A DNA stretch of 64,000 bases from Haliclona indistincta (taxonomy: Eukaryota; Porifera; Demospongiae; Haplosclerida; Chalinidae), in assembly GCA_964017065.1 (NCBI GenBank), contig OZ024788.1, positions 11,656,776 through 11,720,775 of the forward strand. Reading direction: 5' to 3'. Shown here piece after piece: positions 40,901 to 43,900 of this stretch; the first letter of the stretch is position 1; the number at the start of each line of letters is the position of its first letter. The notes beneath the pieces were generated by a model, which had not been told where the DNA came from, searched no databases, and worked only from the letters and a program-made list of their open reading frames with translations. Both the position numbers and the translations under genes were made by a program.

Positions 40901-43900
40901 ATTGTGGGGCTGCTGTGGACAAATTTGCCATTCATCCTCTTTCGTGTAAGAGGAGCGAGGGCAGACATTTTCGACATTCTACTGTCAATTCAATAATCCA
41001 TCGAGCCTTCACAACTGCAGCAATTCCTGCTCGTCTTGAACCACTCAGCCTTCCTCGAACAGATGGCAAGAGACCAGATGGTGTTACAGTTGTGCCCTGG
41101 GAACGTGGCAAGTGTGTCGTCTGGGATTTTACATGCCCTGACACTCTTGCTCGCTCGTACAGAGCGGCTGCTGTTGTTGCACCGGGCACTGTGGCAGCTC
41201 AGGCAGAGAACAGAAAAATTGCTAAGTACAGTCGACTTGATCGGTCACTGTACATGTTTGTACCAATTGCGATTGAGACCATGGGTACTTTTGGTGAGAG
41301 GTCTCTTAAATTCATCAAGGATTTGGGCAAGAGGATCGCATTTCAAACTGGTGACCCACTCAGCCGTTCGTACCTGTTCCAACGTTTGTCTGTGGCAGTT
41401 CAAAGAGGCAATGCTGCTTCCATCTTGGGAACTGCCTGTTTGGTGGCCTGACTATGTCTGTTTCTTTTCAGTGTTTTTGTTGTTGTTTCTTTGTTGTAAT
41501 TATTTTTGTTATTATTTATTATTAAATATATTTTGTTTATTTATTCTCTACACCTTAGTGTTACCTTGTTGCTTTATCATAATTATTATAGTATGTGTGT
41601 GTCTATCACAATAAACTATGATAGTTACAATATCATGTGTAATAAGATTAGTACAGTATGTGATAAATAAAATTGATTATAATAAATAATAATAGCGCTA
41701 TTAGTTAGTCGTAAAACACGTTTAAACAAGAGGGAGGCGGCTGTCAGAGGATGCGGCAAGTGTGATATTGGAGCCAGCCACTGGTCTATGAAAAGAGGAG
41801 CGGCTTCCTCTGATGCATCTCACTGCAGAGCGCGGACCGCAACGTGTACAGGTGCACTGGTGTACTGTACTATTATTATCAGTACTGATAATACAGTACT
41901 ATGCTGTGACATTTGGCGACGAGGACAGAGCTGAACCTACATCGATATGGCCACGATACTTGTCGGCAATATTGGAGAGTTCGACCCGGACAAAGAAGAG
42001 TGGTCACAGTACGCGACTCGTCTTCGATATTTCTTCGTGGCGAACGGTATCAAGGAAGAAGCTACTCAAAAAGCCATCTTTCTTACCTTAGTGGGTCCGG
42101 CTACGTTCAAGACTCTGAGATCCCTGGTTTCGCCCGCTTCGGTGGATGACAGTACTTACCCACAACTAACGGGAGAACTGGAAGAGTACTACAACCCGAA
42201 GCCTTCCGAAATAGAACAACGGTTTAAGTTTAATTCAAGGTGCCGCCAGCCAATGGAGTCAGTGGCAACTTTTGTCACCGAGTTAAGAGCCCTGGCGAAG
42301 CATTGCAACTATGCGGCGGGTTCTTTGGACTCCTTGTTGAGAGACAGGCTCGTGTGTGGAATCAATGATATGCAAATGCAGCGAAGATTGCTGTCGGAAA
42401 AAGAAATTACATTTAAAACTGCATTAGAGATTGCACTAGCAATGGAGACAGCTGCTAGAGATACACATACGTGCTCGACGCTTCAGCATCAGCAACCAGA
42501 CGCGAAAGAGGAGAATTTGAAGGTTACTGTACCAAAGATTATGCCTGCCCCGGTTTGTACTCCTGACAATATAGAGCATCCTTCTGGTGGTTACGAGCAT
42601 GAATTTGTCAATGAAATACCTGAGTGTCTCTGCTGTGGTGAGTGCAAGCGGCCTTTTTGTAGACCACAACTTCTTCGTTGCTGTGATCGAATTATCTGCA
42701 AGCCATGCATTGATCATGTTCACTTCCAAGGCAAACCATGCCCTTACTGCAAGCAACCATTCTCAACTGTGTTGGACAAAGATACTCGCTCCAGAGTACT
42801 CAATCTCGCTGTGTACTGCACCAACAAAGAAAACGGCTGCACTTGGAATGGAGAGTTACGTGGCTTGCAAGACCATATTTCAAAGAGTTGTGAATTTGTG
42901 AAACAATATTGCCGATACTACTGCGGTGAGAAGTTCAATTGTATTGAGTTAATTCCACACGAGCGTTTTATATGCCCCAATCGCCCGTTGGATGTCAAAA
43001 TAGAAATTTTGGAGTCACAATTTGCTGAATGTCAGGTTAAGATAGCTCAACTGGAAGCTCAGTTAGTCTGTCCTCCTTGCAAGCTGACAATGAATGGGTA
43101 CACATACCACAAGAGCAGTAAGGATGAATGGTTCAGTCCACCATTTTACGATAGACCAGGAGGCTACAAGTTCTGTCTCAAAGTGGGCGTTAATGGCACT
43201 GGATCTCATGTGTCTGTGTATGTGTATCTCATGAAAGGACTGAATGATGATCGACTGGTGTGGCCGTTTCAAGGCAGCATTGAGATTCAACTAGTGAACC
43301 AGAAGAAACACAACAAGAGTGTTGTGATTGAATTCGATAAGAAGGCTGCATCTAGGGGCAGAGCTGATAGAGCTGTTATGGAGGATACTAGTGATTTAGG
43401 ATGTGGATTGAATCAGTTCGTGTCTCATCACAGAGTAGAGAAAGTTACTGATCGTAGTCAATATATCACTGACGATTGTCTGACATTCATTATTGCTGAT
43501 ATTAACTGTACTGCAACAAATTTTGCTGCAAAGTAAGCTGTCTTATAATAATTTATTATAGATTGTCACAGGATTGTTCTCTACATATGTGGTATGTACA
43601 CTTATAACTATTCTCAGTCCTATTTAGCCTCTTGAACTTCAACCCTTCAAAATAAAATAAAAATCACTAGAGTATATTATGCCTGCAACAAAAGCCCGGT
43701 TAATGTGTTTCTTTCGATTATAGCTATCAGTAATGATCGCTGGCTCATTCTGATGAGTGATTAGATCTTTTCATAAACCATGCAGGGCAGAGCTGGCAGA
43801 GCTAATATGAAGGACACTATTAATACTTCAGGATGTGGATTGTGTCTCATTGTAGTGTGCAGAAAGATATTCATCGTAGTCAATAGTTATATCACTGAAA

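Follow-up and report, generated by a model that had tools for sequence, protein, structure and literature searches.

What is a retrotransposon capsid doing at the head of a TRAF-like protein? The window, by which we mean the whole 64,000-nucleotide stretch of DNA analysed, comes from a genome that, to judge by its gene families, looks like that of an animal, and it holds an open frame in which pieces of two genes are joined and could give one protein. We ask whether this frame is genuine, how it could have been made and whether it could act.

One open frame with a capsid half and a TRAF-like half

The frame starts at an ATG and runs uninterrupted for 529 codons on the plus strand (41947–43536), as the first-pass annotation had reported; the other two forward frames contain 26 and 38 stops, and the sole run of N in the window (19871–20070) lies far from it. 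Residues 1–206 are a Ty3/gypsy-type Gag capsid and residues 207–529 a TRAF-like RING/zinc-finger/MATH protein, and the Gag–TRAF fusion is a real in-frame chimera. Its parts, with an intact neighbour for comparison, are as follows.

41947–42564, plus strand: Gag codons 1–206, a capsid with N- and C-terminal lobes by model, 90% identical in DNA to eight genome copies
42565–42569, plus strand: junction; in the DNA alignment no more than 5 bases separate the end of the Gag match from the first secure TRAF match
42565–43536, plus strand: TRAF-like part, residues 207–529 with the stop codon, from protein and profile searches
42634–42750, plus strand: RING-like zinc module, C230–C268, with 8 cysteines that do not vary among the 9 rows and the usual histidine replaced
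42817–42975, plus strand: two TRAF-type zinc fingers, presumed ligands C291–C343, 8 positions that are the same in all 9 rows
43129–43485, plus strand: MATH (TRAF-C) domain (PF21355, E 1.3e-22)
44304–45347, plus strand: intact TRAF-like paralog without Gag, from the open-frame list

The N-terminal half is homologous to the capsids of Ty3/gypsy gag-pol elements. It gave 180 matches at E ≤ 1 in a protein search and, among the 120 of these listed, a reverse transcriptase, protease or zinc-knuckle domain is present in many, while many others have no domain on file; against one protein, P0129, 154 of 183 residues of the Gag piece are identical. When 62 rows of alignment A2 were scanned, a zinc knuckle was found in 39 and Retrotrans_gag in 21, while the fusion's own Gag piece matched no family at E ≤ 0.01 in that scan; in a separate scan its Retrotrans_gag match (E 0.013–0.021) fell below the cut-off. 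The predicted structure of the piece (pLDDT 91, nine helices) has a complete capsid fold, the fold looked for in a domesticated capsid gene, and capsids make up the majority of rows among the structure matches listed for this model. Prediction of the full-length fusion gave a mean pLDDT of 69 and was too poor outside Gag for use. One residue, V90E, departs from a capsid position that is more than 90% conserved.

The Gag half was first placed in the first ~172 residues; its identity as Ty3/gypsy Gag stands, and its boundary moves to residue 206 (position 42564) on the strength of a motif, KIMPAPVxTP, common to family members up to the codons preceding the zinc knuckle. Because KIMPAPV is Gag in these family members, Met199 was ruled out as the native TRAF start. 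Several Gag matches extend past residue 206, by no more than 13 residues in all but one case; the exception (C1:15572336) overruns by 25, to residue 231, and continues into a zinc knuckle, not TRAF, with nothing TRAF-like better than E 0.017 in the surrounding stretch searched. In the fusion, Gag codon 206 is followed by TRAF-like sequence, and within the 529-codon frame there is neither a nucleocapsid zinc knuckle nor pol, in agreement with the earlier statement that Gag stops before its knuckle and that pol is absent.

The C-terminal half (residues 207–529, searched as 206–529) matches eight other proteins at 55–88%; as first described, it belongs to the neighbouring TRAF-like family and is complete. 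A profile of the nine rows matches TRAF6 over the RING plus zinc finger (E 7.2e-14) and TRAF5 over MATH (E 2.3e-19, with TRAF2 also matched), and presents a RING-type module, TRAF zinc fingers and MATH in that order. All 16 presumed cysteine/histidine zinc-ligand positions are invariant in the nine rows, fusion included. The module is not a canonical C3HC4 RING: the usual histidine is absent from all nine, with an extra cysteine nearby, and the RING label given earlier is kept for the module type and corrected as to the histidine. Pfam recognized RING in six rows and zf-TRAF in three, neither of them in the fusion, in which MATH was the only domain above the cut-off; this MATH domain carries W486C and F488L.

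The family is large in this genome, with 149 TRAF-like matches (counted as stretches) lying on C6, C4, C1, C5 and others, some of them in frames of more than 1000 codons. Within the window, the paralog pairs 27189–29603 and 31907–34703 look like a segmental duplication; the first of the second pair (31907–33066) is broken into two frames, and the paralogs at 28416 and 33345 have unequal numbers of coiled-coil repeats. A block of ~1.6 kb with decayed TRAF-like pieces is also duplicated at ~81% identity (29151–30833 and 38815–40456). Comparison of 43024–43504 with 34197–34677 shows MATH to be 95% identical, and the RING/zinc-finger part ~72%, to the same paralog, a disparity that suggests gene conversion. 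Apart from this family, two near-alike adjacent proteins with a signal-peptide-like start lie on the minus strand (53684–54808 and 55668–56783).

The combination of halves was found once. Only one of 86 own-genome matches to the whole fusion covers both halves, and it is the window's own; the search took in 144,033,363 bases on 46 contigs, and its match counts are lower bounds. No second protein carrying Gag and TRAF halves appeared among the matches listed in three protein searches (the best 120 of 180, 9 of 9 and the best 120 of 197), and the P0001 cluster comprises two member sequences on one contig. Viral contigs gave no relative by tblastn, nor was there one in 98 matches to the leader pattern.

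The upstream sequence and the related element family

Upstream of the Gag ATG, four features could be told apart.

41684–41841, no strand assigned: dispersed-repeat fragment unrelated to the element, 80% identical to C2:16389865–16390036
41842–41903, no strand assigned: short palindrome-bearing stretch that separates the repeat fragment from the Gag piece, delimited by genome matches
41904–41911, plus strand: last 8 bases of the element LTR (CTGTGACA), identical to the LTR end of L134
41912–41946, plus strand: retrotransposon leader with primer-binding site (TTTGGCGACGAGGAC), from genome matches

The first-pass annotation had seen an LTR with TGTCA and TGACA ends at 41742–41911. The genome copies rule this out, as most of the interval is a dispersed-repeat fragment, and repeat matches over 41684–41841 and 41728–41832 both cross the supposed start at 41742; the second of these stretches is 83% identical to 10 dispersed copies and 79–81% to two more over a shorter length. 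In L113 the repeat occupies the end of an open frame on the minus strand, and a second open frame nearby looks like part of a non-LTR reverse transcriptase protein. Within the window, a separate open frame at 40756–41451 had no Pfam match; from its Cys/His motif and RPDG...VWDFTCPDT we take it to resemble the end of a non-LTR reverse transcriptase protein. The stretch 41842–41903 is covered by none of the 18 genome matches of 41620–41905, the window's own aside.

The LTR of the related family is a different sequence of 153 bp (L134:1313–1465, TGTAATGACTT...ATCTGTGACA at its ends), situated immediately before the leader, and upstream of the fusion's leader no similarity to it extends beyond the last 8 bases. 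BLAST of this LTR against the window gave 18 bases at best (E 0.026), as did the LTR of the decayed copy L140 (E 0.31), and LTRs flanking the element were found neither beside the leader nor elsewhere in the window. Because the LTR is absent, the idea that it provides a new promoter is not supported.

The leader, by contrast with the supposed LTR, was rightly called PBS-like. The stretch 41904–41946, or its right-hand 38–40 bases, is 92–98% identical to 13 other places; 14 of its bases are identical in a distant relative, L099, whose Gag is 41% identical, and the 17-mer CATTTGGCGACGAGGAC has 14 exact genome matches against none for a reversed control. We take the leader to be complementary to the end of tRNA-Ser. 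Use of tRNA-Ser is reported for a locust element that clusters with Mag (PMC3391268).

The first pass had also proposed a search of the same genome for Gag relatives, and these exist. Eight copies are 90% identical in DNA to the fusion Gag; a ninth, L140 (88%), is decayed, and five shorter Gag fragments are among the matches listed. The eight are 98.5–100% alike over 612 bases, their Gag protein is ~83% identical to that of the fusion, and six lie within open frames of 1308–1340 codons. A second LTR stands ~4.2 kb away in six of the eight, which indicates that the family was recently active; this family could be a partner or target of the fusion in the same genome. Among 14 leader-bearing copies compared (fusion included, with L134 the source of the LTR query), the LTR lies directly upstream in 11, ten of them matching at 99–100% over the aligned bases and L140 at 124 of 147, and it is absent at the fusion, L141 and L142. 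One further exact leader beside an LTR, at C1:10548586, falls outside this comparison, and the leader of L142 is a variant outside the 14 exact matches. L141 and L142 are, from 1466 onward in each, internally deleted copies that keep the leader, a partial Gag and a 3′ LTR-like end. An origin with one LTR, or by cDNA capture, was considered from the three of 14 leaders that lack an LTR directly upstream; it was left as an idea only, because ~1.2 kb ahead of the L142 leader there is a weak match to the LTR.

The junction and its probable origin

Gag ends at 42564 and TRAF begins between 42567 and 42570, the family Gag DNA reading ...GTTCGTACCCCTAGCCCT where the fusion reads ...GTTTGTACTCCTGACAATATAGAG. 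Three further features bear on the TRAF side of this join.

42571–42573, plus strand: ATA (Ile209) in place of the ATG seen in both decayed relatives, from alignment with the copies at 30137 and 39784
30137–30225, plus strand: decayed relative of the TRAF N-terminus with an ATG and its own upstream sequence, 80% identical over 91 columns
39784–39873, plus strand: another decayed relative of the TRAF N-terminus, its upstream sequence resembling that of the first, 78% identical over 91 columns

DNA similarity of the fusion to both decayed relatives starts at 42567. It seems that the presumed own start codon of the TRAF part has been lost, as the fusion has ATA where both relatives carry ATG; with this change, translation of full-length TRAF would start in codons that derive from Gag. 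The sequence upstream of the relatives (39480–39800) was found in the genome only at these two places, apart from a reverse match of 41 bases within the stretch, and is absent at the fusion. In both relatives a polypyrimidine-CAG precedes the ATG, and they may still have used it as an acceptor. A splice-made junction, to which this motif pointed, was ruled out as the leading idea, as the family Gag has AG, not the donor GT, after the last shared base. The lack of a splice donor where Gag breaks off speaks for DNA end joining.

A Gag sequence ahead of host sequence is also the layout of genes captured by retroelements, and the locus could be read as a true LTR element that acquired a TRAF cDNA in the manner of a gag-onc transduction. 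Neither a 5′ nor a 3′ LTR was found, however, the TRAF part lies in the cluster of its own family with the same orientation, and the Gag break has no splice donor; we rejected retro-capture on the missing LTRs and hold it to be most improbable. Every TRAF-like open frame of at least 120 codons in the window is on the plus strand, the simplest reading being that the TRAF part is resident and that Gag came in later.

We favour, as probable if not secure, a gene chimera that arose by chance at the level of DNA. A piece of a retrotransposon consisting of the LTR end, the leader and Gag codons 1–206 would have been joined to the start of a resident TRAF-like gene, probably by non-homologous end joining with no more than 5 junction bases, and the join would have fallen in frame by chance within the tandem TRAF-like cluster. 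If the locus is transcribed, translation would begin at the Gag ATG. The capsid part might then associate with itself, or assemble together with capsids of the related, recently active family, and bring RING-like and MATH modules with it. Several observations count against an accident: the 529 codons are open despite ~10% base divergence of Gag, all 16 presumed zinc-ligand positions are kept, and dN/dS is 0.42–0.46 in Gag and 0.28–0.34 in the RING/zinc-finger part, although both of these paths include history before the join, after which constraint may have acted.

Constraint, possible roles and known counterparts

Rates were obtained for each part separately, as the first pass had advised for Gag and TRAF. 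Against five in-frame family copies (L132, L133 and L135 left out), the fusion Gag has dN 0.080–0.083 and dS 0.17–0.19, from which the ratio given above derives, on a path that mixes element and host history; against the decayed L140 the ratio is 0.38. Nonsynonymous changes in Gag are fewer than under neutrality (P about 0.01) over the whole path, including the element's own life before the join. The RING/zinc-finger ratio was measured to three paralogs, for which MATH gave 0.93 (nearest), 0.54 and 0.43, and the three among themselves 0.26–0.27. In a MATH block of 481 bases, seven nonsynonymous changes and one synonymous are specific to the fusion (P = 0.48 if neutral, 0.05 if omega is 0.3); of the other differences five are unpolarized and five on the paralog's side.

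The 7:1 changes in MATH count in favour of an unexpressed chimera, whose frame would still be open only because the join is young. The missing LTR promoter, the unrelated repeat fragment upstream and the decayed pieces in the same cluster point the same way, and 529 codons with no stop or frameshift tell against it. This explanation, which overlaps with that of a chance chimera, is quite plausible without being the one we would assume.

If the protein is made, Gag could act by replacing an oligomerizing short coiled coil, to give a constitutively clustered TRAF-like adaptor. TRAF signalling operates through clustering, and the paralogs at 28416 and 33345 have long coiled-coil repeats where that of the fusion is short. 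Short-coiled-coil paralogs (27189, 44304 and 45847) nevertheless lack Gag and the MATH changes look unconstrained, and we think such capsid-driven clustering unlikely.

TRIM5alpha and TRIMCyp, in which RING-type modules are joined to capsid recognition, and Fv1, a captured Gag that acts through it, suggest another role by analogy, that of a domesticated anti-retrotransposon factor whose capsid part would target sister-family capsids while the RING-like and MATH modules marked or disrupted them. The predicted capsid fold is complete, the zinc modules are intact, the 529-codon frame is open and an active family with a Gag 83% identical resides in the same genome. Weighing against such a factor are the single copy in one genome, the want of any other two-half protein among the matches listed in three protein searches, V90E at its conserved capsid position, W486C and F488L in MATH, and a RING without its histidine; no promoter was identified for the fusion. 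We judge this role decidedly unlikely. A capsid-directed ligase is possible but speculative, and it seems very doubtful that the capsid now serves to target a TRAF-like RING/MATH protein, which would co-assemble with, and mark, capsids of the active sister family. That one DNA join might in this way, by capsid baiting, have yielded a counterpart of TRIM5 is a long shot. Unlike TRIM5alpha, TRIMCyp and Fv1, the fusion has Gag itself as the putative capsid-binding part.

The fusion resembles TRAF2, TRAF3, TRAF5 and TRAF6 in the order of RING, TRAF zinc fingers and MATH, and differs from them in having Gag in front and a short coiled coil, and in belonging to a family without the RING histidine. 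The earlier claim that no Gag–TRAF fusion had been described was too strong, because PMC6431247 reports planarian gypsy elements, Burro/GYPSM1, in which Gag likewise shares a single ORF1 polyprotein with a MATH_TRAF_C domain; beyond Burro, a literature search found no other among the best matches in open-licence papers. Burro is described there as a giant LTR element that is complete, has zinc knuckles in its Gag and carries pol along with further domains (PMC6431247), whereas the fusion has no LTR, pol or knuckle, and its RING, zinc fingers and MATH directly follow Gag. In keeping a Ty3/gypsy-type capsid fold without LTRs and pol it resembles Arc, PNMA and RTL/SIRH, domesticated metaviral capsid genes that are described as retained across mammals (PMC11011659). 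The long regions fused to several SIRH/RTL capsids and to RTL1 have, according to that paper, no additional recognizable domains (PMC11011659); the fusion, in contrast, carries a full TRAF-like protein after its capsid and is known from one genome.

If expressed, the fusion would be a natural and young example of a capsid placed, in a single event, on a protein of the signalling or ubiquitin-ligase type, with a related active element still in the genome against which it could be tested. If it is not expressed, it illustrates how end motifs alone can lead to a mis-called LTR, and it shows an in-frame chimera of transposable element and host arising in a tandem gene cluster.
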